Positions 1 through 11,183 of a stretch of 11,183 nt of DNA are shown here, piece after piece (position 1 is the stretch's first letter; each line of letters opens with the position of its first letter). Source of the stretch: Polynucleobacter meluiroseus (GTDB lineage: Bacteria > Pseudomonadota > Gammaproteobacteria > Burkholderiales > Burkholderiaceae). The notes below the pieces were generated by a model. It ran no database searches, was not told the origin of the DNA, and worked only from the letters and a program-made list of their open reading frames with translations. The position numbers and the translations under genes were made by a program. The DNA lies in contig CALQED020000017.1 of NCBI GenBank assembly GCA_943329505.2, positions 1-11,183 on the forward strand, written 5' to 3'.

Positions 1-146
1 TAGGCGGACATCACGCTAAAATAGCAGATTGGCGTCGGCAGAAGTCTTTAGAGCTGACGTTCAAGCTCAGGCCAGATTTAATTGAATCGGCCAGAGCTAA
101 TGGGTTGCTAACCCGAGAAGATGAACAATTTCTTCGCTCGCTGTGA
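1..146 (+). CDS. trmD: TrmD, tRNA (guanine-N1-)-methyltransferase, C-terminal end only
   Basis: Partial gene entering from the left edge. The frame from base 3 to the TGA at 144-146 gives 47 residues starting [19 protein letters not shown], which matches the TrmD C-terminal region (the HH..I..WRR..S motif and the helical tail ending TREDEQFL). TrmD is the cytoplasmic SPOUT-family enzyme that transfers a methyl group from SAM to N1 of G37 in tRNAs reading CNN/GNN-type codons, which prevents frameshifting. rplS directly downstream agrees with the conserved rpsP-rimM-trmD-rplS order of proteobacteria. The knotted SAM-binding domain lies outside the window, so identity rests on the tail and the neighbour. 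Confidence 0.93.
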
Positions 147-282
147 ATACTCTCAGTAGTGCTCAGTGGTGAATAGGTGGTTTAGATTTTGGTTTAGTGA
201 AATTGTTTTAACTGCATCCTCTGTTAGGTCCGTTGATGAAAATCTCGGGATTAAACGCTAATACGATGTTTAAGGATTAAAA
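147..282 (+). other. trmD-rplS spacer and rplS leader with Shine-Dalgarno
   Basis: A 136-bp AT-rich gap, longer than I would expect inside the rpsP-trmD-rplS operon. AAGGA at 272-276, 6 nt before the rplS ATG, is a good Shine-Dalgarno site and fixes that start. Near the trmD stop there is a two-copy 10-bp direct repeat (CTCAGTAGTG 152-161, CTCAGTGGTG 162-171) and then GGTTTAG twice (179-185, 191-197). I see no convincing sigma-70 promoter and no clear autoregulatory hairpin, so co-transcription with trmD is the simplest reading. Confidence 0.5.
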
Positions 283-678
283 ATGAATTTAATTGAAAAA
301 ATTGAGCAAGAAGAAATTGCTCGCTTAAGTGCTAACAGAACTTTGCCAAGCTTTGCGCCTGGCGATACAGTAGTTGTTAGCGTAAACGTTGTTGAAGGTA
401 CACGTAAGCGTACCCAGGCCTTCGAAGGCGTTGTGATTGCTAAACGTAATCGCGGACTTAATTCTAGTTTTATCGTGCGTAAGATTTCTTCTGGTGAAGG
501 CGTTGAGCGTACTTTCCAGACTTACTCACCTTTGATCGCGAGCATTGAAGTAAAGCGTCGCGGTGATGTTCGTCGCGCGAAGTTATATTACTTGCGCGAT
601 CGTTCTGGTAAGTCAGCACGTATTAAAGAAAAACTCCAAGCACGCAATAAGACAGTGGCTGCTCCAGCCGCTGAATAA
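283..678 (+). CDS. rplS: 50S ribosomal protein L19
   Basis: 131 residues. L19 sits at the 30S-50S interface of the ribosome and contributes to an intersubunit bridge. The sequence is typical throughout: an N-terminal helix ([12 protein letters not shown]), the [14 protein letters not shown] beta strand around residues 26-39, [17 protein letters not shown] around 48-64, and the family signature [19 protein letters not shown] around 89-107 followed by GKSARIKEK. It is about 15 residues longer than E. coli L19 because of an Ala/Pro-rich tail ending AAPAAE. The start is supported by AAGGA at 272-276. A strong intrinsic terminator 20 nt after the stop closes the transcript. No anomalies seen. Confidence 0.98.
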
Positions 679-697
679 TGACCGCTTTGAGGTAAAT

Positions 698-724
698 AAA
701 AAGGCGGCCTTGGTCGCCTTTTTT
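698..724 (+). terminator. Rho-independent terminator of the trmD-rplS transcript
   Basis: AAAAAGGCG (698-706) pairs with CGCCTTTTT (715-723) around the 8-nt loop GCCTTGGT. GC pairs sit at the loop end and the 3' arm runs into a T-tract (719-724). This is a textbook intrinsic terminator. The A-tract on the 5' side could let it work weakly in the opposite direction as well. Confidence 0.93.
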
Positions 725-731
725 GTTGCCT

Positions 732-746
732 TAGAATATGACTATG
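732..746 (+). promoter_or_regulatory. Predicted -10 box and leaderless start of the Nudix gene
   Basis: TAGAAT (732-737) matches TATAAT at 5 of 6 positions and is followed by 6 nt and then ATG at 744. A -10 hexamer normally ends at -7, so the predicted first transcribed base is the A of this ATG. A weak -35 (TTGGTC, 710-715, 16-bp spacer) lies in and beside the loop of the rplS terminator. There is no Shine-Dalgarno sequence before either in-frame ATG (738 or 744). Inferred from sequence only. Confidence 0.55.
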
Positions 747-1481
747 TCTAAGACTCTTAAGCCTGCAGTAGATGCGATCAATATCGCTGCGCCCTCAGGG
801 TTTAGTGCAGAAGCGGTTGCAATTCATGAGGTATGTATTCATGATAAAAAGGTCAACCCAGAATTTCTGGAGCCGGAGGCTCTAAAAGCCCGTCTCCAAT
901 GTCCGCCTCAATGGCAACCCGAAATTACTGATGAAAACCGCTACGTCATGGCTACGGATATCATCGCTAAGCGTCAAGCTGCTGGAAAGGTAACCCGGGC
1001 AGCAGTATTAATCCCTTTGCTATTAAAAGAGGATGGCTTATCTGTTTTATTGACACAAAGAACCAATCATTTGCATGATCATGCAGGGCAAATTAGCTTT
1101 CCGGGTGGCCGAATGGATCCTGAGGATCTCAGTCCAAATGACACTGCTTTAAGAGAAAGCAAGGAAGAGATTGGTCTAGATCCTCAGCGCGTAGAGATTA
1201 TTGGTCATCTTCCAGAGTATTTAACAGTTTCTGGCTATAGCGTCACGCCAGTAGTAGGATTAGTACAAGCTCAGGCAGAATATGTCTTGGATGAGTTTGA
1301 GGTGGCAGATGTTTTTGAGGTGCCGCTCCATTTTTTACTAGATCCAGCCAATCACCAGATCAGAGTATGGCAAAGTGAGTTGGGTGGCCGTCGTTTCTAT
1401 GCAATGCCTTATGAGAACCGCTTCATTTGGGGTGCTACAGCGGGAATGTTGCGTAACCTTTATCATTTATTAAAAGTATGA
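744..1481 (+). CDS. Nudix hydrolase, CoA pyrophosphatase (NudL/YeaB) type
   Basis: 245 residues from ATG 744; an in-frame ATG at 738 would add two. The Nudix fold hydrolyses nucleoside-diphosphate-X compounds with Mg2+; this subfamily is thought to act on coenzyme A and derivatives. The UPF0035-type signature LLTQRTNHLHDHAGQISF followed by PGG lies near residues 102-122, and the catalytic helix RESKEEIGL near 137-145 carries the metal-binding EE pair. The Nudix box is longer than the canonical GX5EX7RE spacing, as is usual in CoA pyrophosphatases. About 90 residues precede the Nudix core, so it is longer than the roughly 190-residue E. coli NudL. I chose 744 because a -10 box places the transcript start there. 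Its last codon overlaps the next gene (ATGA, 1478-1481), implying coupling. The substrate is not proven. Confidence 0.88.
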   Translation: MSKTLKPAVDAINIAAPSGFSAEAVAIHEVCIHDKKVNPEFLEPEALKARLQCPPQWQPEITDENRYVMATDIIAKRQAAGKVTRAAVLIPLLLKEDGLSVLLTQRTNHLHDHAGQISFPGGRMDPEDLSPNDTALRESKEEIGLDPQRVEIIGHLPEYLTVSGYSVTPVVGLVQAQAEYVLDEFEVADVFEVPLHFLLDPANHQIRVWQSELGGRRFYAMPYENRFIWGATAGMLRNLYHLLKV

Positions 1482-2434
1482 CTTTCTTCTCTATTCTCTT
1501 CGCCCTCATTGCTGAGCAATATCGCCCAGTAACTTCTAGCCATTGGATTGCGCGTATGAGTACGCGTTGGTTGGATTGGGTGGCCGGTGAATTTGGTGGT
1601 AAATCTGAAGAGGGTGCAAGTCCAGTTGGTGCACGTATGGCCTGCTTGGTCGCATTTATCTTGCCAACCTTCTTGGTGTTCATGGTCTATGTCATCTGTA
1701 TGGTGACTTATCCGATCTTAGGTTTTTTGTGGAACATCGTCATTGCGTATTTGTTTTTTGGTTTTCGTCAATTCAGTCACTCATTTACTTTGGTGCATGA
1801 AGCGATTGAAGCGCATGATTTGCCAGCAGCTCGCGTTGCATTGGGTGAGTGGTATGGCCCAGAATTAGATACAACCAATCTTTCTGAGACTGAAGTCATT
1901 TCATTAGCGCTAGAGCGCGCCATCATTGGCTCGCATCACCATGTATTTGGCATCTTATTTTGGTTCATGATGCCTATGGGCCCTGCTGGTGTAGTGCTTT
2001 ATCGTTTAGCGGATATCGCCTCTCAGCGTTGGTCGGAGCGTGATTACAACCTTAGTGAAGCAGCACGCCATTTCTTCTATGTACTTGATTGGATTCCTGC
2101 ACGGATCACTGCAATGGGCTTTGCAATTGTTGGAAACTTCGAGGGTGCAGTGTATGGATGGCGTTATCTCACGCAAAAATGGTCTGACTCATTATCTGCT
2201 GTGATTTTGGCTGCAGGCAGCGGCGCGTTAGGTGTGCGCTTAGGTCAACCCTTGAGCGAGCCTGATAGCGATGAAGCTTTACGAATGGCTGAGGCTGGTG
2301 AGCCCTTAGTCTATGAGGTGGGTCTTGAGCCAACTGAGCGCACCATGCGCTCTGCAGTTGGCTTGGTATGGCGCTTAGTTATCGCTTGGATGGCTTTATT
2401 GCTAATGTTGACCATCGCTCTTTGGCTTGGCTGA
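1478..2434 (+). CDS. CobD/CbiB-family integral membrane protein (degenerate, AmpE-like)
   Basis: 318 residues. The start ATG overlaps the Nudix stop as ATGA, so translation is probably coupled. Membrane segments are visible near residues 1-12, 53-75, 78-96, 155-175 and 294-316. The family resemblance is the block SLALERAIIGSHHHVFGILFW, then PAGVVLYRLADI (around 169-180) and DWIPARITA (204-212), which align with the CbiB/CobD blocks APLFW, GAPGA..YR..NTLD and PARI. True CbiB joins aminopropanol (or its phosphate) to adenosylcobyric acid in B12 synthesis. Here the usual Asn/Asp-Gly residues of the first block are replaced by AIIGSHHH and no cobalamin gene is nearby. A role in B12 synthesis is therefore unlikely; AmpE-like proteins of unclear function are the better comparison. 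Its 3' end overlaps rsgA on the other strand. Confidence 0.78.
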   Translation: MTFFSILFALIAEQYRPVTSSHWIARMSTRWLDWVAGEFGGKSEEGASPVGARMACLVAFILPTFLVFMVYVICMVTYPILGFLWNIVIAYLFFGFRQFSHSFTLVHEAIEAHDLPAARVALGEWYGPELDTTNLSETEVISLALERAIIGSHHHVFGILFWFMMPMGPAGVVLYRLADIASQRWSERDYNLSEAARHFFYVLDWIPARITAMGFAIVGNFEGAVYGWRYLTQKWSDSLSAVILAAGSGALGVRLGQPLSEPDSDEALRMAEAGEPLVYEVGLEPTERTMRSAVGLVWRLVIAWMALLLMLTIALWLG

Positions 2435-3392
2435 TCCCCTGAATTTGTGTATCCGCCGTTTTTGAGTCTGAACGCAGTTGTCTAAATAGCGCCAGTCTTT
2501 CTGGCGCTATTGCATTTTGATTAACTGCATCTCGCACAGCACAATCAGGTTCAGATTGATGCGCACAATTATGAAAGCGACATTTACCCAGCAGGTCTTG
2601 AAATTCTCGAAAGGCGTGCTGTAATTCGCTCACAGACATGTGCGCTAAGCCAAACTCCTGAAAGCCAGGTGAGTCAATGAGTGCACCGAGTTTTCCAGCA
2701 TCATTTCTGCCCCAAGATTCTGGTAATTCAAAATAGCGGCAAGCTGTAGTGGTATGTTTGCCAGTATCTAGACGCACAGAGTATTCCTGGGTTAATGCAG
2801 CAGCATTCGGAACCCAAGCATTTAGTAGGCTAGATTTACCCATGCCTGACTGACCAACAAAGACAGATACTTTGCCTTGCAAGGCAGGGCGTAGCGCATG
2901 AATCGATGCAGGATCAAATTTAGCGGAGACCTCGCTGACTGGGTAGCCCATGCGTGCGTAAGGGGCAATGATCTTGCGCGCTTGCTCTAGCTTATCTTGA
3001 AGATCGCACTTATTGAGCAGAATATGCAAACCAATTTGATTGGCTTCTGCAGCTACGACCGCTCTGCCTAGTAGGTCGGGGGAGAATGCAGGTTGCGTCG
3101 CTAGGACTACCAAAATTTGATCAACGTTAGAAGCAATAATCTTGCTCTTAAATGCATCAGATCGATACAGAATAGTCTCGCGGGGCTCGATTTCAATAAT
3201 GCGTGCTTGATTTGCAGAAGTCATCTCTAGCAACAGGCGATCACCTACTGCACCAATATGCTGCTTGGCAGGTGTGCTCACCTGAATCAGTGGACCACTT
3301 GGTGACTCATTGGCAAGTACATCGGTAACCAGACGCTGCGCTAGGTAATGCCTGCCATAAGAAGCAGTCAGTAGCGCACGAAATTGTTCCAT
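2379..3392 (-). CDS. rsgA: RsgA, small ribosomal subunit biogenesis GTPase
   Basis: 337 residues. RsgA (YjeQ/EngC) is a circularly permuted GTPase that binds the 30S decoding region late in assembly and promotes release of RbfA. The permuted motif order is clear: G4 NKCDL (127-131), G5 SAK (156-158), G1 GQSGMGKS (180-187), G2 threonines around 214-216, G3 DSPG (240-243). The zinc knuckle follows as C271-x4-C276-x-H278-x5-C284. An OB-like N-terminal domain precedes the GTPase. The ATG lies 14 nt after the M48 stop with no good Shine-Dalgarno sequence, which suggests coupling to that gene. The last 18 codons overlap the CobD-like gene antisense, and codons 294-303 contain a perfect 11-bp inverted repeat. 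Confidence 0.97.
   Translation of the reverse strand: MEQFRALLTASYGRHYLAQRLVTDVLANESPSGPLIQVSTPAKQHIGAVGDRLLLEMTSANQARIIEIEPRETILYRSDAFKSKIIASNVDQILVVLATQPAFSPDLLGRAVVAAEANQIGLHILLNKCDLQDKLEQARKIIAPYARMGYPVSEVSAKFDPASIHALRPALQGKVSVFVGQSGMGKSSLLNAWVPNAAALTQEYSVRLDTGKHTTTACRYFELPESWGRNDAGKLGALIDSPGFQEFGLAHMSVSELQHAFREFQDLLGKCRFHNCAHQSEPDCAVRDAVNQNAIAPERLALFRQLRSDSKTADTQIQGISQAKERWSTLAIKPSKR
2485..2511. repeat. Perfect 11-bp inverted repeat inside rsgA, possible terminator for the convergent transcript
   Basis: AATAGCGCCAG (2485-2495) and CTGGCGCTATT (2501-2511) are perfectly complementary around a 5-nt loop, TCTTT. The hairpin begins 51 nt after the stop of the plus-strand CobD-like gene and is the only strong hairpin between the two convergent genes. 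It is entirely inside rsgA coding sequence (residues 294-303). On the plus strand TTTT appears only 5 nt after the stem (2515-2518), so as an intrinsic terminator it is imperfect. It could equally slow RNA decay from the 3' end. Confidence 0.6.
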
Positions 3393-3406
3393 GAGATAAA
3401 CGAGAT

Positions 3407-4657
3407 TTAGCTCAGACGTTGCAAGTTGGCGATACGCAATGGGGCAGGCGGGTGCGAGCTATAGAAAGCAGTGTAGATAGGATCTGGTGTTAGCGTCGAT
3501 GCATTATCTTGATACAGCTTCACCAGTGCAGAGATAAGATCTTGGGCGGACGATTTTTCAGCAGCAAATCCATCAGCTTCGTATTCATGTTTGCGCGAAG
3601 CAAGGCTGCCGAGCGGCGTGAAGAAAAAACTAAATACTGGGGAGACCAGCATAAATAGTGCCAAGGCTAGACCACCGTTATAGCCATTAAGGTTAGGCAT
3701 GACTCCAAGATCGGTATAAAACCAAACTTGCGTACTGACCCATCCAAGTAAGGCAAACATCGCAAAGCTCAAGGCAAAGGAAACAATAAGACGCTTGCGA
3801 ATATGTTTGCACTTGAAGTGACCTAACTCATGAGCAAGCACTGCCTCAACTTCGCCGGGGTTTAGTTTCTCAATCAGGGTATCAAAGAATACAATACGCT
3901 TCGCTTTGCCCATGCCAGCAAAGAATGCATTGCCATGAGCACTACGCTTACTGCCATCCATAACAAACAAGCCTTGACTAGCAAAGTCGCAGCGCGTTAA
4001 GAGCGCCTCAATTTTAGTTTTGAGTGGGCCATCTTCTAAAGCTTGAAACTTATTAAAGAGAGGTGCAATGAATGTTGGAAAGATCCACTGCATCAACAGG
4101 CTAAATAGAGAGAGCACTGCCCATGCCCAGAGCCACCAAAGATCACCAGCCTTAAGCATTAGCGTGAGGATGACCCATAACAATGGAATGCCAATCGCAC
4201 CACCCACAGATAGACCTTTAAACATATCACTAAAGAATAATTTTTTATTCATGCGATTAAAGCCAAAGCGCTCTTCGAGATAAAACTGTTTGTACCAAGA
4301 GAAAGGCAGATCCAGAATTCCGGAAATGATGACGATGGATACTAGCAATGCAATTTGCTGCGCAACACCTTCGCCCAGCAATTGCAGAAGAGCTAAATTG
4401 AGGATTTCTAATCCCCCTAGTAATGTGAAGGCAATTAAAATAATGGCACTTACCCCATTTTCTAAAATCGCTAGACGTAATTTAGCGATTGTGTAGTCAG
4501 CGGCTTTCTGATGTTCGGCTAGAGTTACTTTGGAAGCAAACTCAGCCGGGACTGTGTCTCGATGCTGGGAAACGTACCGAATTTGACGTTGGGAGAGCCA
4601 GTGGCGTAGGCCAAAACTGGCTATGAAAGCGATTAGGAAAACAATTGTGAATGTCAT
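3407..4657 (-). CDS. M48-family membrane metalloprotease, Ste24/CAAX-protease-like
   Basis: 416 residues from ATG 4657; GTG 4663 in frame would add two. This is an integral inner-membrane zinc protease of the Ste24 (M48A) type. An N-terminal membrane helix is followed by several more (roughly 66-115, 147-193, 289-312, 328-348), the FGFN signature at 131-134, the catalytic HELGH at 276-280, and the third zinc ligand in EYEAD at 358-362, with the conserved SHPP near the C-terminus. The length fits bacterial Ste24 homologues. These are thought to work in membrane-protein quality control; a bacterial CAAX-processing role is not established. The start is chosen from a TATAAT box placed so that transcription would begin on this ATG. 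rsgA follows after 14 nt, so the two are probably one operon. Confidence 0.92.
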   Translation of the reverse strand: MTFTIVFLIAFIASFGLRHWLSQRQIRYVSQHRDTVPAEFASKVTLAEHQKAADYTIAKLRLAILENGVSAIILIAFTLLGGLEILNLALLQLLGEGVAQQIALLVSIVIISGILDLPFSWYKQFYLEERFGFNRMNKKLFFSDMFKGLSVGGAIGIPLLWVILTLMLKAGDLWWLWAWAVLSLFSLLMQWIFPTFIAPLFNKFQALEDGPLKTKIEALLTRCDFASQGLFVMDGSKRSAHGNAFFAGMGKAKRIVFFDTLIEKLNPGEVEAVLAHELGHFKCKHIRKRLIVSFALSFAMFALLGWVSTQVWFYTDLGVMPNLNGYNGGLALALFMLVSPVFSFFFTPLGSLASRKHEYEADGFAAEKSSAQDLISALVKLYQDNASTLTPDPIYTAFYSSHPPAPLRIANLQRLS

Positions 4658-4681
4658 GCTCACATTATATTTACTGTGAGC
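4658..4681 (-). promoter_or_regulatory. M48 gene promoter: consensus -10 framed by a perfect inverted repeat
   Basis: On the minus strand the perfect consensus TATAAT (4669-4664) is followed by 6 nt, GTGAGC, and then ATG 4657, which predicts a leaderless mRNA. A perfect 7-bp inverted repeat, GCTCACA (4658-4664) and TGTGAGC (4675-4681), lies around the -10 with a 10-nt centre. The -35 region is weak (ACCCCA at a 17-bp spacer). The repeat looks like an operator. In a transcript reading through from the upstream prpD gene it could also form a hairpin directly before the ATG. Its half-sites face the opposite way to CRP sites. Confidence 0.6.
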
Positions 4682-4710
4682 GATATTGGGGTGGATTTGG
4701 TTTGCAAGGC

Positions 4711-6087
4711 CTAGTTGCGTGGGCTAAGTAGAGCGACAAAATCTCTAGCCGAGGCGAAAGTCTCCAGTTCCCAGGCCGCCTTACATATCAACTCAGACTG
4801 ATTTAAGCCCAAAATTGGAGACATTAAGTCCATACATTTTCTATCTAGCTCTAATCTATTCATGGGATTATTTGGCGTTCCCTTAACATCTCGGGTATAA
4901 ACCTCAAAGTGTTTGCCGGAGCGAAGTGTAATTCGTACAATCCCTTGTCGCGTTGGCATATTTTTTGATAGCTCATCACTGCCTTCCAGGCTAATTAACT
5001 TCCTTAATTCCAGGATCTTGGGGTCACTCATTCTGGATCGATCGTGAGCCAAATGAAAGTCCATCCTCCCCTCAAAAATCATGAGTGCTACGAGATGCTG
5101 CAAGCAGATTTCTGGCATTTCTCGATTGTTCACAATGGTGAGAGATTCATGTGGAATTTTCACGTGAATATTAGTAATACTAGAAGGATCAAGCTGCTTG
5201 CCTAGCGTCTGAATGAGTTCGTCTACGCAATCTAGGGGTGCCTGAATGGGGGAGCCTACTGTCCAACGCTTAATACTAGTTTGGAGAATTTCATAGCGCT
5301 TCCCTAGGTCAACTCCCAACTCTTGTCTGAGTGGTTCAACACCATAGGCATCATAAAAATTTCTCTCGCCAGAGAAAACATCTTCAACACCAGTAAAGTC
5401 ATTAATAACCATGAGCGCTGATGTCATTCCATTTCTGGCTGCCATTCCTCCAAAATCAAACGCTTTTTCAATGTGATCTTTATCACGCATCCAGCAAGAC
5501 ACTCCCGAAGCTTGTTGCGCAGCGTAGGATAGTAAATACCTGGCTTGAATTGCATTCACTCCCAGTAGCGCTCCAGCGGAAGCAGCGGCACCAAAGTTTG
5601 GCCCAAAGGTATGGGATGAGTGTCCATTGGCTCTAAATTGATAGGGGTGTAGCGATTTTGTTAATCGACAGCAAATATCGTAGCCCAAAGTCATTGCTTT
5701 AAGTATGTCTAGACCAGAATTATCTTGTAGCTCTGCTGCCGCTAGAGTGGCAGCAACAATACCGCAGCCAGGATGGGTCAGAGATTCCGCATGAGAGTCA
5801 TCGGTCTCATCTGCGTGACCAAACATACCATTTGCTAGGGCAGCATTGATTGCAGTTGTTCTTAGATTAGTCCCAAGTAATATGGCCTGGGGGGCAGCAG
5901 CACCCTGTGCTTTAACAAATTGAATGGCTCTTTTGCCTGCTAGCATTTGAGAGCCAGAGATCATTGATGCAATAGTGTCCAAAAAATGAAACTTAGACTT
6001 TTCAAGAATATGGTCTGGTAATTGTTGTGTTAAAGCGCTCGCTATATATTCAGAAACGAGCGGCATTGGTGAAGCTTTTAATTCCAT
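4711..6087 (-). CDS. MmgE/PrpD-family protein (copy 1)
   Basis: 458 residues, the usual family length. The MmgE/PrpD family includes 2-methylcitrate dehydratase, cis-aconitate decarboxylase and iminodisuccinate epimerase, all acting on small di- or tricarboxylates in the cytoplasm. The N-terminal helical domain carries HADETDDSHAESLTHPG (91-107), matching the family DxxDD..H block, then NGHSSHTFGP (154-163) and HIEKAFDFGGMAARNG (205-220) with the expected lysine K208. At the position where many members have His in a HPAIDA-like block, this protein reads SPIQAPLDC with Gln282, so it belongs to a different subgroup from copy 2. It starts 37 nt after copy 2; ATG 6066 is an alternative start. Nothing distinguishes dehydratase, decarboxylase or isomerase activity. 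A 2-methylcitrate role is unlikely because no prpB or prpC is nearby. Confidence 0.85.
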   Translation of the reverse strand: MELKASPMPLVSEYIASALTQQLPDHILEKSKFHFLDTIASMISGSQMLAGKRAIQFVKAQGAAAPQAILLGTNLRTTAINAALANGMFGHADETDDSHAESLTHPGCGIVAATLAAAELQDNSGLDILKAMTLGYDICCRLTKSLHPYQFRANGHSSHTFGPNFGAAASAGALLGVNAIQARYLLSYAAQQASGVSCWMRDKDHIEKAFDFGGMAARNGMTSALMVINDFTGVEDVFSGERNFYDAYGVEPLRQELGVDLGKRYEILQTSIKRWTVGSPIQAPLDCVDELIQTLGKQLDPSSITNIHVKIPHESLTIVNNREMPEICLQHLVALMIFEGRMDFHLAHDRSRMSDPKILELRKLISLEGSDELSKNMPTRQGIVRITLRSGKHFEVYTRDVKGTPNNPMNRLELDRKCMDLMSPILGLNQSELICKAAWELETFASARDFVALLSPRN

Positions 6088-6124
6088 ATCATTCTCGTAA
6101 TAAAGTAAGGCATTATTTCAGTAT

Positions 6125-7483
6125 CTACTTACATAACAGCAAAAGTTTTGATACATCTTGTTCCTGCTCTATAGACCATATCTTTTTTTGAGTTTGCTGT
6201 GCGTTTTCAGGGCCAATGACTGGGCTGGCATTTGCTAGAAATTTTTGAATTAAATCTTGGTCTGACATGGGGTGGTCTACTGTTCCGTTAGCATGCTCAA
6301 TAAATACCTCTTTTGATTCGACTTTAGTTTTGATGCATGCATAAGCTTGATCTCGCTGGAGGGATTCGTCTACCGTCACAGAAATTTTTTGACGTAGATT
6401 TTCTACTTGAGGATCCAATACCTTATGATCTGAGTATTGCTCAATGCCCGCTTTACCATCAATAAAGGCAACAGCAATGCTATGGTAAATGCTAAATTTT
6501 GAATGCAATCCAGAGCTTGGATTTTGTGTTCCAGTAATAGACACTACAAGTGGGTTGACCTTCACTTCAATCGATTCAATACTCTCTAGGTCCCAGCTTT
6601 TTAATTGCCGCAGCGCTATCAATGCATCAATTGCAGGGTGCAAGACAACACCACACGCATAAGGTTTAAAACCATTACGAGTGATTTCCCAGCTGGCCCC
6701 TAACTCAGACGTCATACGCTCTGGTGCAGAAGTGCTGCTGTAGATACGACAAAATCCTCTTTTACCTTCGATGATTTCTAGACTGCTATCAAAACCCCGC
6801 ATTGCTAGACGTGCAGATAAAATCCCATTCGCTGCAGCTTTGCCTGCGTGGAAAGATTTACACATAGTTCCGCGGTTTTGCTGCATGCCGCTAGCTTGCG
6901 TACCAGCAATCCCCATTGCATGTGTAATTTGACCTGCATTTAAACCCAATAATTTTGCTACTGCTACCGCAGATGAGAAGTGGCCCAAAGTTCCAGTCAG
7001 ATGCCATCCACCAGCATGGTGAGCGGGAGATGATTGACCTACGCGAACCCCAGCCTCAAAGCCACATACGTATGCTAGTAAGAAATTTTTACCGCACGAT
7101 GGTTGACGTTGTGATTCAGAAAAAAGGGCCGCTAATGTCGGAGAGCTTGCATGGAGAACAACGCCACCCATGTGGGTGTCATCGAAATCTAGTAAATGAC
7201 CCATTTGCCCATTTACCATCGCAGCATCAAGGTAGCTTAAAGAGGTATTCCGACCCAAAACAATTGATTGATGATCTGTCGAATTTTCTTTTAAAGTGTC
7301 TATCAAAATATCTGGGGTGGAATGTTGACCTCCAATTAATGCACAGCCAATCCAATCCAGGACGCCTCTTTTGGCGGCATGAACTGTTTCAGGAGATAAG
7401 TCTTCAAACTTTGTTTTGAAGATATGCGCGGAAAAATCCTCTGTATATGAAGGACTTCCATCTTCTTTGATATGCATTCCCAT
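6125..7483 (-). CDS. MmgE/PrpD-family protein (copy 2)
   Basis: 452 residues. The family active-site blocks are all present: GHLLDFDDTH (95-104), H111 in VLHASSPT, GGWHLTGTLGHF (158-169), GTMCKSFHAGKAAANG (205-220) with K209, and KPYACGVVLHPAIDA (273-287) with H282. By comparison with human cis-aconitate decarboxylase (ACOD1/IRG1) these are the acidic, histidine and lysine positions that line the carboxylate pocket, so the enzyme looks catalytically intact. Substrate and reaction cannot be read from sequence. It begins 9 nt after the bug stop and is followed by a second, clearly divergent family member, which indicates one operon. The ATG at 7483 is used; ATG 7477 is the alternative. A long antisense frame inside it is not considered a gene. 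Confidence 0.88.
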   Translation of the reverse strand: MGMHIKEDGSPSYTEDFSAHIFKTKFEDLSPETVHAAKRGVLDWIGCALIGGQHSTPDILIDTLKENSTDHQSIVLGRNTSLSYLDAAMVNGQMGHLLDFDDTHMGGVVLHASSPTLAALFSESQRQPSCGKNFLLAYVCGFEAGVRVGQSSPAHHAGGWHLTGTLGHFSSAVAVAKLLGLNAGQITHAMGIAGTQASGMQQNRGTMCKSFHAGKAAANGILSARLAMRGFDSSLEIIEGKRGFCRIYSSTSAPERMTSELGASWEITRNGFKPYACGVVLHPAIDALIALRQLKSWDLESIESIEVKVNPLVVSITGTQNPSSGLHSKFSIYHSIAVAFIDGKAGIEQYSDHKVLDPQVENLRQKISVTVDESLQRDQAYACIKTKVESKEVFIEHANGTVDHPMSDQDLIQKFLANASPVIGPENAQQTQKKIWSIEQEQDVSKLLLLCK

Positions 7484-7492
7484 TTTAATTTC

Positions 7493-8464
7493 TCAGTCAG
7501 CGTAAATATTTGCTTTGATGATTACTTCGCTCCAGCGTTTGACTTCAGCATCTAGCATATCGCCCGCTTCTTTTGATCCACCTTGGACGGGTTCCATGGC
7601 GTATCTCTTTAGCAACTGTTTAATACCATCTGATGTAAGCGTCAGCTCTGCAGCTTTTTTGAGTTTGATCAGGACATCACTTGGGAGATTTACTGGCGCG
7701 TAGACTCCATACCATCCAGCAACATCATAGTCTTTAATACCACCCTCAATCATTGTTGGCACTTCAGGTAAAGCCGAAGATCGCGTGTTGGTAGTGACGC
7801 CAAGCGCCCTAAATCTTTTTGCTTGGATTTGTGATTTTAATTCAGCAACGGATCCAAACATCATCTCTACATCTCCAGCCATCAAAGCATTCATCGCTGG
7901 GCCTGCGCCTTTGTAGGGCACATGCACAATATCAACCCCTGCTTTATTTTTGAATAGCTCTGCCGCTAGATGAATGGCAGAACCTGCACCTGCAGATGAA
8001 TAGTTATATTTACCAGGGTTCGCTTTTAATAGGGCAATTAATTCTGGCACATTTTGTGCTGCAAAATCATTTCTTACTACCAACACATAGGCTGACCGCC
8101 CAATCAATGTGATGGGTTGAAGTAGCTTGAGATCGATTGAGGATTTTGGGTACATTGCAGGAGCTGATGCGGTTGCAATATTGCCGAGTAAGAGGGTGTA
8201 GCCATCAGGTTGTGCCTTAATCACACTTGTAATTCCGATGGTGCTTCCTGACCCAGGCCTGTTTTCTACAAGTACGGTTTGACCTAAATTTTTTCCAAAA
8301 TCAGTAGAGAAAAGTCTTGCAATGCCATCTACAGCCCCTGCTGGTGCAAATGGAACAATAAGTTTAATGGGATGATCTGGATAGGCTGCGAGAGCAAGAG
8401 GTGACCAGATTAAGCTTGCTAGGATGATGGAGGGCAAGATTTTTTTTAATGCTTTTTGAATCAT
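7493..8464 (-). CDS. Bug-family (TctC-type) periplasmic tripartite tricarboxylate transporter receptor
   Basis: 323 residues from ATG 8464. A Sec signal peptide is clear: lysine-rich start MIQKALKK, a hydrophobic core, and a likely ALA/AYP cleavage after residue 26. An upstream ATG at 8500 would put 12 polar residues before it and is less likely. The mature protein shows Bug-family landmarks: YPDHPIKLIVPFAPAGAVDG at its start, VENRPGSGSTIG (from about residue 66), PDGYTLLLGN, and HVPYKGAG (181-188). Bug proteins bind carboxylates or related small solutes in the periplasm. No TctA/TctB membrane partners lie nearby, the usual orphan state in Burkholderiales. As first gene of the bug-prpD2-prpD1 cluster it probably captures the compound, or a relative of it, that the two enzymes handle; that link is inference. 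Confidence 0.9.
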   Translation of the reverse strand: MIQKALKKILPSIILASLIWSPLALAAYPDHPIKLIVPFAPAGAVDGIARLFSTDFGKNLGQTVLVENRPGSGSTIGITSVIKAQPDGYTLLLGNIATASAPAMYPKSSIDLKLLQPITLIGRSAYVLVVRNDFAAQNVPELIALLKANPGKYNYSSAGAGSAIHLAAELFKNKAGVDIVHVPYKGAGPAMNALMAGDVEMMFGSVAELKSQIQAKRFRALGVTTNTRSSALPEVPTMIEGGIKDYDVAGWYGVYAPVNLPSDVLIKLKKAAELTLTSDGIKQLLKRYAMEPVQGGSKEAGDMLDAEVKRWSEVIIKANIYAD

Positions 8465-8617
8465 ATCGAGTTGTCTCGTGTGATGAGAAATCAACGGCAT
8501 ATCGTTGTTTCAAGTGTTAATCATGCTGCCTATCTTACACCTGAAGATTGCTTGAACTCCCGTTGAAGTATCTCTCTAGGTGGATGCGAACTAGTTGCCA
8601 AAATTTATCTTCTATTT
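8465..8617. other. Divergent spacer upstream of bug and orn
   Basis: This region must hold the promoter for the bug-prpD2-prpD1 cluster, but I see no strong one. A minus-strand TAAGAT (8537-8532) is the best -10 candidate and has no good -35. A short inverted repeat CAACG-N6-CGTTG (8492-8507) spans the alternative ATG at 8500. No regulator gene is present, so any control would come from elsewhere. Confidence 0.3.
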
Positions 8618-8657
8618 TTGTTCGCAAGACCTTTTAGGGTCTAAAATACTGATCAAT
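8618..8657 (+). promoter_or_regulatory. Candidate orn promoter with overlapping inverted repeat
   Basis: TTGTTC (8618-8623), an 18-bp spacer, and TAAAAT (8642-8647, 5 of 6 to consensus) lie just before the orn ATG at 8658. The -10 ends 10 nt before the ATG, which would leave a leader of only about 4 nt, and no Shine-Dalgarno sequence is visible. TTTTAG-GGT-CTAAAA (8632-8646) is a perfect 6-bp inverted repeat overlapping the -10 and could be an operator or chance. Confidence 0.45.
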
Positions 8658-9242
8658 ATGAGTGAAATCACAAGCGCCTCTGTTACTAAGTCAGCCCCCC
8701 TGAATGAGCATCTTATTTGGGTGGATATGGAGATGTCTGGATTGGATCCAGAAACCGAACGCATCCTCGAAATCGCCATTATTGTGACCGATGCCCACCT
8801 CAATACTATTGCAACTGCTCCTGTATGGGTAGTGCATCAGGATGATGTGCTCTTGGATGCTATGGATGCTTGGAATAAGGGTACCCATGGGCGCTCGGGC
8901 TTAATTGATAAGGTCAAAGCGTCTACGCAAGATGAGGCCACAGTAGAAGCAGAGTGCATTGCCTTTTTAAAGAAATATATCAAGGCGGGGATTGCTCCAA
9001 TGTGTGGCAACACTATTGGTCAGGATCGTCGCTTCATGGCTAAGTACATGCCTAAGTTGGAGGCGTACTTTCATTATCGAAATATTGATGTGTCAACTCT
9101 AAAAGAGTTGTGCAAACGTTGGCATCCAGAGCTTGTTAAGGGCTTTACAAAAAAGCAGGCACATACTGCCTTGGCCGATATTGAAGAATCGATTGAAGAG
9201 CTAAAGTATTACCGCGATAAATTTATCGTCCCCTTACCTTAG
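8658..9242 (+). CDS. orn: Oligoribonuclease
   Basis: 194 residues. Orn is a cytoplasmic DEDDh 3'-5' exonuclease that degrades 2-5 nt RNAs and pGpG from cyclic-di-GMP turnover, and is usually essential in gammaproteobacteria. All catalytic residues are present with an offset of 11 from E. coli Orn: D23 and E25 in [11 protein letters not shown]123 in [13 protein letters not shown]169 and D174 in [19 protein letters not shown]140 matches the conserved dimer-interface tyrosine. The frame stays open upstream to a TTG at 8595, but those residues do not resemble Orn and ATG 8658 fits the family, leaving a short N-terminal extension. It is divergent from bug and convergent with mogA, whose stop codon abuts its own. 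Confidence 0.97.
9215..9228. repeat. 14-bp perfect palindrome at the 3' end of orn
   Basis: CGATAAATTTATCG is a perfect palindrome 11 nt before the orn stop codon, encoding part of YRDKFIV. It is AT-rich and has no loop, so it would make a poor hairpin terminator. It is noted because orn and mogA meet here with no spacer in which a normal terminator could sit. Confidence 0.4.
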
Positions 9243-9872
9243 TTAACTCGATTTCTTGATGGCACTCTTGGGTCTGAAGGCCTTAACGACTGCTTCATTG
9301 GTTTCGATATAAGGCCCGCCAATAAGGTCGATGCAGTAAGGCACTGCAGCAAAGATACCGGGCACAATAGATTTACCATTCTCATCTTTGAGGCCTTCTA
9401 GAGTTTCAGCGATGGCCTTGGGTTGTCCAGGTAAATTAATAACAAGAGCGGCGTGCCCCTCGATTTCTCGAAGGACTGCTGTCTGTCGAGACAAAATGGC
9501 TGTTGGTACAAACCGAAGGCTAATTTGCCGCATTTGCTCGCCAAATCCTGGTATTTCTCGCGTACCCGCTTCTATAGTTGCTTCTGGGGTCACATCGCGT
9601 CTTGAGGGGCCTGTACCACCGGTAGTGAGCACGAGATCACAACCCAGTTCATCAATCAGTTCTACGATGGTTTCCGTAATGACTTCAGATTCATCGGCAA
9701 TCAAACGCTCGAAGAAGATACAAGGGTTATTGATAGCATTCATGAGCCAGGTTTGTAGGGCGGGGATGCCTTCGTCTTGATAAACCCCCTTACTGGCTCG
9801 ATCTGAGATCGAGATCAGGCCGATTTTGAGTTCGTTTGGAGAGTTCCGCTTCCAGGCTTCTGTATGCTTCAT
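9243..9872 (-). CDS. mogA: Molybdopterin adenylyltransferase MogA
   Basis: 209 residues. MogA activates molybdopterin by adenylylation with Mg-ATP so that MoeA can insert molybdate. The match to E. coli MogA is close along its length: KIGLISISDRASKGVYQDEG (16-35), VLTTGGTGPSRRDVTPEA (81-98), GFGEQMRQISL (109-119), FVPTAILSRQ (121-130), INLPGQPKAIAETLEGL (145-161) and the tail AFRPKSA. The catalytic aspartates correspond to D60 and D93 (E. coli D49 and D82, offset 11). The extra 11 N-terminal residues depend on ATG 9872, supported by a TAGAAT box 6 nt before it. It is transcribed alone on this strand, is divergent from pmbA across 26 bp, and its TAA directly abuts the orn TAG. Confidence 0.96.
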   Translation of the reverse strand: MKHTEAWKRNSPNELKIGLISISDRASKGVYQDEGIPALQTWLMNAINNPCIFFERLIADESEVITETIVELIDELGCDLVLTTGGTGPSRRDVTPEATIEAGTREIPGFGEQMRQISLRFVPTAILSRQTAVLREIEGHAALVINLPGQPKAIAETLEGLKDENGKSIVPGIFAAVPYCIDLIGGPYIETNEAVVKAFRPKSAIKKSS

Positions 9873-9884
9873 ATTTCTATTCTA
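9870..9884 (-). promoter_or_regulatory. Predicted -10 box and leaderless start of mogA
   Basis: On the minus strand TAGAAT (9884-9879) is followed by 6 nt (AGAAAT) and the mogA ATG at 9872. There is no Shine-Dalgarno sequence. The -35 position (TGTAAA, 9907-9902, 17-bp spacer) is weak and falls inside the first codons of pmbA. Inferred from sequence only. Confidence 0.55.
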
Positions 9885-9886
9885 GC

Positions 9887-9901
9887 TATTATTAGGACAT
9901 G
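9887..9901 (+). promoter_or_regulatory. Predicted -10 box and leaderless start of pmbA
   Basis: TATTAT (9887-9892, 5 of 6 to consensus) is followed by 6 nt (TAGGAC) and the pmbA ATG at 9899. The AGGA inside the 6 nt is too close to the ATG to be a normal Shine-Dalgarno site. No good -35 is seen; its position lies in the mogA start region. This -10 is only 2 bp from the mogA -10 on the other strand. Confidence 0.5.
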
Positions 9902-11183
9902 TTTACATATTCATCCAACCAGTTTCAAGAAATCATTCATTTCATGCTTAAAGAGGCCAAAAGAAGGGGTGCCTCGGATGCCATTGCCGAAGTCTCTGAG
10001 GGTCAGGGGCTGTCGGTAACAGTTCGTAAGGGCGAAGTGGAGACGATTGAACAAAGTTTGGATAAGCAGGTTGGGGTAACGCTATTTTTAGGCCACCACC
10101 GCGGTAATGCCAGTACCAGTGATTTTTCAAAAGAGTCTTTGAAGGCGACGGTTGATGCCGCTTATCACATTGCCCAACATACTGCGGAAGACAATTGTGC
10201 CGGTCCAGCTGAAGTAGAGTTGCTTGAAAAAAATCCCTTAGATTTGGATTTGTTCCATCCCTGGGATATCGATGCAACGCGTGCGGTAGAAATTGCACGT
10301 CTTTCTGAGGGCGCAGCATTTTCTGTGAGTCGGCAAATTCAAAATAGTGATGGCGCATCAGTATCAGCACACCATGCGCATTTCATGATGGGAACATCGC
10401 ATGGCTTTATGGGTGGCTACCCATTCTCACGCCATTACATTTCTTGCGCTCCGATTGCTAGTGAGGGGGGTAAAAAATCGCACATGCAAAGAGATGATTG
10501 GTATTCCAGTTCACGCATCCCTTCAGATTTAGCTGATCCAGCAGCTATTGGTCAGTATGCTGCACAGCGTGCCTTATCTCGCTTAAAGGCGAGATCACTC
10601 ACTACGCGTCGTTGCCCGGTGATCTTTGAAGCCCCTTTAGCTGCTGGTCTTATCGGTAGCTTAGTGCAAGCAGTTTCTGGTGGCGCCCTTTATCGTCGTT
10701 CCAGTTTTTTACTCGATAGCTTAGGTAAGCAAGTCTTGCCAAAACATCTCAGTCTCTTTGAAAATCCTCATCTCAAGGCTATGACAGGTAGTGCGCCATT
10801 TGATGAAGAAGGTGTGCAGACTAGCGCTCGCACTGTAGTTGATAAAGGTATTTTAGAAGGATATTTTCTTTCGACCTATTCTGCGCGAAAGTTGGGAATG
10901 AAAACTACAGGCAATGCAGGTGGCTCGCATCACCTCACTTTGCAAAGTAAGAAGACGCCTAAAGGTGGCTTACCTGCGCTATTAAAAGAAATGGGTACGG
11001 GTTTATTGGTCACCGAGTTAATGGGGCAGGGTGTGAATTATGTAACAGGCGATTACTCTCGTGGTGCATTCGGCTATTGGGTAGAGAATGGTGAGATTCA
11101 GCATCCAGTCGAAGAGGTCACGATTGCCGGTAACTTACGCGATATGCTGCTAGACATTGAATTGATTGGAAGTGATACCTTGA
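9899..11183 (+). CDS. pmbA: PmbA/TldE, subunit of the TldD-TldE metalloprotease (3' end cut)
   Basis: 428 codons are in the window with no stop, so the gene runs off the right edge; E. coli PmbA has about 450 residues, leaving roughly 20-25 missing. TldD-TldE is a cytoplasmic protease that matures modified peptides such as microcin B17 and degrades the antitoxin CcdA. TldE is the partner without the zinc site. Recognisable blocks are VTVRKGEVETIEQS (40-53), DLDLFHPW (115-122), YRRSSFLLDSLGKQVLP (265-281), FDEEGVQT (301-308), YSARKLGMKTTGNAGG (327-342), and VTELMGQGVNYVTGDYSRGA (371-390) with YWVENGEI and VEEVTIAGNL just after. The start at ATG 9899 agrees with the family N-terminus and with a -10 box 6 nt before it. 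tldD is not in the window. Confidence 0.96.
   Translation, partial: MFTYSSNQFQEIIHFMLKEAKRRGASDAIAEVSEGQGLSVTVRKGEVETIEQSLDKQVGVTLFLGHHRGNASTSDFSKESLKATVDAAYHIAQHTAEDNCAGPAEVELLEKNPLDLDLFHPWDIDATRAVEIARLSEGAAFSVSRQIQNSDGASVSAHHAHFMMGTSHGFMGGYPFSRHYISCAPIASEGGKKSHMQRDDWYSSSRIPSDLADPAAIGQYAAQRALSRLKARSLTTRRCPVIFEAPLAAGLIGSLVQAVSGGALYRRSSFLLDSLGKQVLPKHLSLFENPHLKAMTGSAPFDEEGVQTSARTVVDKGILEGYFLSTYSARKLGMKTTGNAGGSHHLTLQSKKTPKGGLPALLKEMGTGLLVTELMGQGVNYVTGDYSRGAFGYWVENGEIQHPVEEVTIAGNLRDMLLDIELIGSDTL

Follow-up and report, generated by a model that had tools for sequence, protein, structure and literature searches.

Four genes in one stretch of Polynucleobacter meluiroseus DNA share the same start layout, in which a -10-like hexamer is followed by exactly six nucleotides (N6) and the ATG. 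The stretch, referred to here as the window, is 11,183 nt long (contig CALQED020000017.1 of assembly GCA_943329505.2, positions 1 to 11,183), and the genes encode a nudix hydrolase, an M48 (CAAX-type) peptidase, a MogA-like protein and PmbA. Each hexamer very probably belongs to a sigma-70-type promoter lying six nucleotides from the ATG, which would yield a leaderless mRNA or one with a leader of 1-2 nt. The spacing is conserved within the genus, sampled ATG starts of the genus are enriched for such hexamers at this single position, and sampled outgroups show no corresponding peak. On our best reading, predicted leaderless initiation is a minority mode in this genus, found at about 3-5% of ATG starts and most often in divergent pairs.

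Four starts with one layout

The nudix gene (744..1481, + strand; Pfam NUDIX) is preceded by TAGAAT at 732..737, the M48 gene (3407..4657, - strand; Pfam M48 domains) by TATAAT at 4664..4669, the mogA-like gene (9243..9872, - strand; Pfam MoCF_biosynth) by TAGAAT at 9879..9884, and pmbA (9899..11183, + strand; Pfam PmbA_TldD domains) by TATTAT at 9887..9892. The sequence-only reading that drew attention to this layout had placed all four correctly. Since each element ends six nucleotides before the ATG, transcription would start on or next to its A, at 744, 4657, 9872 and 9899, respectively. Two genes have a second in-frame candidate codon abutting the hexamer, namely an ATG at 738 for nudix and a GTG at 4663 for M48. 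The extra nudix ATG is missing in several relatives that keep the ATG six nucleotides past the hexamer; ATG 744 is conserved at N6 and ATG 738 is not. The GTG occurs in none of the relatives listed, and the M48 start aligns at residue 1 across the genus loci listed.

The earlier arithmetic, by which 19 of 4096 hexamers match TATAAT at five or more positions, is correct, and four such starts among 11 are indeed far above chance (binomial p 8.5e-7 with the per-position background measured at 0.72%). With higher base rates the probability is 7e-4 (genome-sample rate of 4%) or 0.012 (divergent-gene rate). Because the pattern was spotted post hoc, the independent tests (conservation, genome samples, genus counts and orthologue concordance) carry more weight.

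For conservation, orthologous upstream regions were aligned; only rows with ATG as the aligned start and at least 60 nt upstream were kept, and duplicate upstreams were merged. The loci matched, those with ATG at the start and the distinct upstreams numbered 35/30/23 for nudix, 41/41/38 for M48, 44/43/21 for mogA and 44/43/20 for pmbA, and 42/28/20 for orn, 35/35/18 for rplS, 36/36/25 for cobD and 38/37/37 for rsgA. Among distinct genus upstreams the hexamer begins at exactly -12 in 22/23 for nudix, 36/38 for M48, 21/21 for mogA and 20/20 for pmbA, the exceptions being N5 in one nudix upstream and N7 in two M48 upstreams (L132 and L133). Four other window genes gave 0/18 (rplS), 0/25 (cobD), 1/37 (rsgA) and 0/20 (orn), in agreement with the earlier statement that the CobD-like gene and rsgA do not have the layout. 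The N6 spacing is kept while the spacer letters change, most of all at nudix; the M48 spacer is GATCTC or CATCTC in 30/38. Where one orthologue has the layout, a second has it too in 52/69 comparisons, against a base rate of 4.1%, and six control positions gave 0/9, 0/6, 0/3, 2/8, 0/6 and 4/17. In most loci of the genus alignments, residue 1 of these proteins is aligned.

As contig C17, the window belongs to a Polynucleobacter metagenome-assembled genome of 1.42 Mb (237 contigs, 64% complete). The window's PmbA reaches 94% identity with proteins from named Polynucleobacter records. A Pfam check of 10 of the 11 window genes, all but rplS, returned in addition to the four domains above a CobD/CbiB-like protein, RsgA, two MmgE/PrpD proteins, a TctC (Bug-type) binding protein and an RNase_T exonuclease (orn). 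Downstream of rplS, a strong hairpin with a T run (692-737; -18 kcal/mol, z -4.45) ends a few nucleotides before the nudix -10 element and is conserved in relatives; a terminator scan reported no terminator there. An inverted repeat read by eye, GCTCACA-N10-TGTGAGC, flanks the M48 -10 element at 4658-4681. It is missing from the relatives listed, and is possibly an operator or the trace of an insertion.

Enrichment at a single position

The -12 position was counted in five genus samples, four of 400 kb, each from a separate genome of the genus, and one of 267 kb from the window's own genome (20/237 contigs). Genes were called, also for E. coli, with our own coding-score caller, which makes no use of upstream signals or annotation; miscalled starts should dilute a peak at -12. 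We counted ATG starts with 80 nt upstream (1759/1763 called genes), took hexamers with at least 5/6 matches to TATAAT as -10-like, and derived the expectation from positions -70 to -21. A first trial mapped orthologues over three 400-kb blocks, where 94/426 genes had both orthologues, 85 of them with a start, and a peak at -12 was already present (6/85); all called genes were used after that, and later orthologue clusters.

Across the five genus samples, -10-like hexamers begin at exactly -12 in 70/1759 ATG starts, where 12.7 are expected. The relatives contribute 14/425, 24/391, 16/377 and 11/320. The own genome is weak on its own (5/246 against 1.7 expected), and M48 and mogA of the window are two of its five. 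By a by-eye count, 12 of the 70 starts are those of window genes or their orthologues, and 58 remain without them. As the relatives share orthologues, the 70 collapse to 53 orthologue clusters; with one gene taken per cluster, 49/1287 starts have the hexamer at -12, 18 at -13 and 11 at -11, whereas positions -70 to -21 average 9.7 and reach 17 at most. The excess corresponds to ∼3.3% of ATG starts for hexamers with at least 5/6 matches and to ∼4.6% for TANNNT. The proposed genome scan for a peak 12-7 nt before the ATG did find enrichment at one position in the relatives. It had been suggested that leaderless translation would be a frequent start mode in this lineage; a start mode of this kind is supported, but at about 3-5% of ATG starts it is a minority one, and "frequent" is too strong.

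No peak at -12 is seen in E. coli K-12 and three outgroup genomes taken together (6/994 against 6.5 expected). One outgroup, G039, had 4/166 against 1.7 expected, an excess that its TANNNT count (1/166) does not repeat. Internal in-frame ATGs have no comparable -12 peak, and candidate GTG (3/643) and TTG (10/1221) starts no clear one. Raw whole-genome counts of TATAAT-N6-ATG (9 in the own genome against 7 for the reversed pattern, and above or below the control in other genomes) were set aside because most matches need not fall at gene starts.

It had also been remarked that the four starts have no usable Shine-Dalgarno (SD) site whereas rplS has a good one. This is true, as rplS has AAGGA at -11 to -7 and the AGGA of pmbA lies just 1 nt 5' of the ATG, but it is so partly by construction, because the hexamer occupies the usual SD place. 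An SD site is present at 0/70 starts of the -12 set and at 401/1689 other starts of the genus samples; given the position of the hexamer, SD absence was rejected as independent evidence.

The layout depends on gene context. It is found at 43/490 divergent genes (8.8%, with a background of ∼1.1%) and at 13/521 genes behind a same-strand gap of at least 50 nt (p 1.3e-5), and with one gene per cluster the two contexts differ by 29/355 vs 10/376 (p 9e-4). The comparison with operon-internal starts that had been called for places the layout most commonly in divergent genes and most rarely in operon-like positions. In the -12 set the base at -1 is a pyrimidine in 77%, compared with 58% of other genes. 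G at -14 and C at -13 occur in 40% and 44% of the set and in 23% and 24% of -10-like hexamers elsewhere, and GC at -14/-13 in 16/70 vs 30/479; both differences come partly from mogA/pmbA orthologues.

Two divergent gene pairs

The start codons of mogA and pmbA are separated by 26 bp (9873..9898) that hold two -10 hexamers arranged back to back with 2 bp between them, with predicted transcription starts at 9872 and 9899, 27 bp from each other. Of 44 genus-type loci, 43 have this 26-bp distance and L141 has 40 bp by projection; in 37 outgroup loci the two starts are 643-790 bp apart. The 32-nt pattern CAT-N6-ATTCTA-N2-TANNAT-N6-ATG occurs once each in 161/186 genus genomes and in 0/197 genomes of the order outside the genus, and all 3 genus genomes of the latter draw have it. 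The pmbA spacing is N6 in 180/182 assessable genus genomes. The 32-nt pattern is missing from 25 genus genomes, 21 of which could be read at pmbA: 19 have N6 (G015 and G022 included), G001 has N5 and G073 has N7; G145, G160 and G184 gave partial pmbA matches and G172 no close match. In 14 of the 19 exception genomes covered by one reading (G015 and G022 were read apart), and in G015, an in-frame ATG lies 4 codons upstream with TATGAT at N6, and would be the pmbA start there. At G017:C1:1045735-1046746 the pmbA match falls into three pieces, frameshift-like, but this relative retains an intact divergent mogA/pmbA element.

The M48 gene and orn form a second pair, divergent neighbours in 34/41 genus-type loci. 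Their distance is 15 bp in 22 of the 41, 0-51 bp by projection in 12 (mostly loci whose orn alignment was shifted or began at a later residue) and, in the other 7, 2.4-5.0 kb. Unsplit loci read CAT, ∼15 bp close to atctataatgatctc, and ATG. At the 15-bp gap of relatives the start codons are 16 bp apart, and orn has a hexamer with a 4/6 match at -13. The pair is split in the window, where two PrpD-like genes and the Bug-type gene lie between M48 and orn (4658-8657), and in six further loci (L108, L116, L119, L128, L132 and L133) with 2.4-5.0 kb in between. All seven split loci keep the M48 TATAAT, at N6 in five and at N7 in two (L132 and L133), and in 5/7 the spacer letters are new. The orn gene itself does not have the layout; the window has TAAAAT-N10-ATG (8642-8658), predicting a leader of a few nucleotides, and L116 has the same hexamer at N10. 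Elsewhere, in the G010 block, a further divergent pair has TATAAT-N6-ATG at both starts (116582 and 116666), 84 bp apart.

In the outgroups similar elements lie further from the start codon. At pmbA, GCTATNAT is 31-39 nt before the nearest ATG in 19/37 loci, further away in 6 and not found within 120 nt in 12, which include the nine Pandoraea loci. At M48, TATAAT lies at 29-30 nt in 13/18 (all Pandoraea or Ralstonia-like) and at 71-94 nt in 3, and was not found in 2. The simplest account, suggested by these distances, is that the genus lost leaders at promoters that sister families would use with leaders of ∼25 nt; this takes the -10 elements of outgroups and genus, which are short, to be homologous. 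Divergent gaps of 0-59 bp occur in 38/245 pairs of the genus samples, some of them orthologous to one another, and in 5/140 pairs of the outgroups and E. coli (p 1.8e-4); such an excess fits compaction.

Discussion

The leaderless reading of the four genes is supported by the enrichment at -12 in the genus samples and by a spacing conserved over variable spacers. RNA polymerase would begin transcription at the A of the ATG or no more than 1-2 nt away, and a ribosome, probably an intact 70S, would initiate at the 5'-terminal AUG without an SD site. At mogA/pmbA two such starts would point apart from 26 bp, so that probably just one polymerase fits at any moment. Several observations weigh against this reading. 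The -35 element is not enriched 16-18 nt upstream of the -12-set hexamers (p 0.23), and there is no clear extended -10 (TGn in 6/70 vs 32/479). Outside the window, the own-genome sample yields just three -12 starts. Operon-like positions, the rarest context, carry the layout too (12/727, background 3.1), so that context separates it incompletely. There is a shoulder at -13 (23/1759 against 12.7 expected) and none at -11 (14), and the set may therefore include mRNAs with a 1-nt leader, or starts lying 8 nt past the hexamer. The 5' ends themselves are predicted from sequence.

The shoulder bears on the possibility that these mRNAs have very short leaders, with transcription starting a few nucleotides 5' of the ATG and an ordinary 30S subunit binding to an unstructured 5' end that has no SD site. 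Start sites may shift by a base or two, and N7 (two M48 loci and one pmbA locus) and N5 (one nudix and one pmbA locus) do occur. We nevertheless regard this explanation as unlikely: ordinary SD-less leaders need no fixed spacing, and the exact N6, seen in the single-position peak and in 180/182 pmbA genomes, speaks against it. For mogA/pmbA, a symmetric bidirectional promoter as known from E. coli could be envisaged, with leadered transcripts coming from sites further away, and extra promoters may lie inside the neighbouring gene. Conserved opposite-strand -10 hexamers within 26 bp would be in keeping with such a promoter, but there is no overlap between the hexamers, and the 27 bp between the predicted starts exceed the 7-25 bp range of the class; the assignment was rejected on spacing, and we consider this explanation improbable. 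That the hexamers are not promoters of these genes at all, being AT-rich by chance, promoting other transcripts or preceding a wrongly chosen start codon whose true counterpart lies downstream behind an SD site, is very improbable, as the lack of -35 enrichment and the raw own-genome counts that favour it are outweighed by the absence of such a peak at other positions, internal ATGs and outgroups, by the orthologue concordance and by genus alignments that mostly begin at residue 1.

Beyond the four genes, we put forward tentatively, and hold slightly short of an even chance, a broader proposal for Polynucleobacter. Minimal divergent leaderless promoters of 15-26 bp would consist of little but two -10 elements, with upstream contacts falling in the first codons of the partner gene, and would have arisen by collapse of leader and intergenic sequence at promoters that are leadered in sister families, where leaders of roughly 25 nt would still be used. 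The choice made by polymerase at such a shared site would couple both genes.

With these results a freshwater beta-proteobacterial genus joins the lineages in which a leaderless start mode can be detected. It provides a comparative case, with a similar -10 element plus leader at many sister-family loci and the -10 element six nucleotides from the ATG in this genus, and it makes testable the route of leader loss, the role of compaction and the sharing of a 26-bp promoter region by two leaderless genes. The layout also helps to assign start codons, as for nudix, where it favours 744 over 738.

In the open-licence literature, supplements excluded, we found no relevant paper on Polynucleobacter together with leaderless genes, Shine-Dalgarno sites or transcription start sites (TSSs). 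Leaderless, TA-led genes, with TANNNT ∼12 bp 5' of the start and no SD site, have been reported from 9/71 beta-proteobacterial genomes, at 2.8-10.6% of genes (Zheng et al. 2011, PMC3160421). The main text of that survey does not name Polynucleobacter, and its supplements may include the genus. The four genes here have the same box distance and the same lack of an SD site, the latter largely forced by the position of the hexamer, and the box is enriched at that distance in the five genus samples, weakly in the own genome alone; conservation of the spacing among orthologues, seen here, does not appear in the passages of the survey considered. In Deinococcus, a -10 motif 6-7 bp 5' of the open reading frame acts, as tested by experiment, as the promoter of leaderless genes, which make up nearly one third of D. 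radiodurans genes (PMC12340547), far above the share of sampled ATG starts here. Closer to Polynucleobacter, TSS mapping in Burkholderia cenocepacia placed 72 starts at the start codon itself and 42 no more than 10 nt from it, with tRNAs accounting for 24 of these transcripts (PMC4603805), and in Cupriavidus metallidurans 4.67% of primary TSSs are leaderless (PMC7563307). Both belong to the same order as Polynucleobacter; their leaderless mRNAs were mapped, whereas ours are predicted, and our sampled outgroup blocks have no -12 peak. For 5' AUGs, initiation by 70S ribosomes has been described, as has the kasugamycin tolerance of that mode (PMC9031893, PMC5230787).

In E. coli and Salmonella, symmetric bidirectional promoters have starts 7-25 bp apart, with an optimum of 18 and reciprocal -7/-11 bases (PMC10268837); they accommodate one polymerase at once, and their basal activity is too low for competition (PMC12825309). 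Like them, mogA/pmbA would initiate divergently from one short DNA stretch, but its wider start distance and non-overlapping hexamers set it apart, as does the prediction that both genes are leaderless. Leaderless genes are a known though uncommon class; what goes beyond that class here is the exactness with which the spacing is conserved, together with the compact divergent pair.

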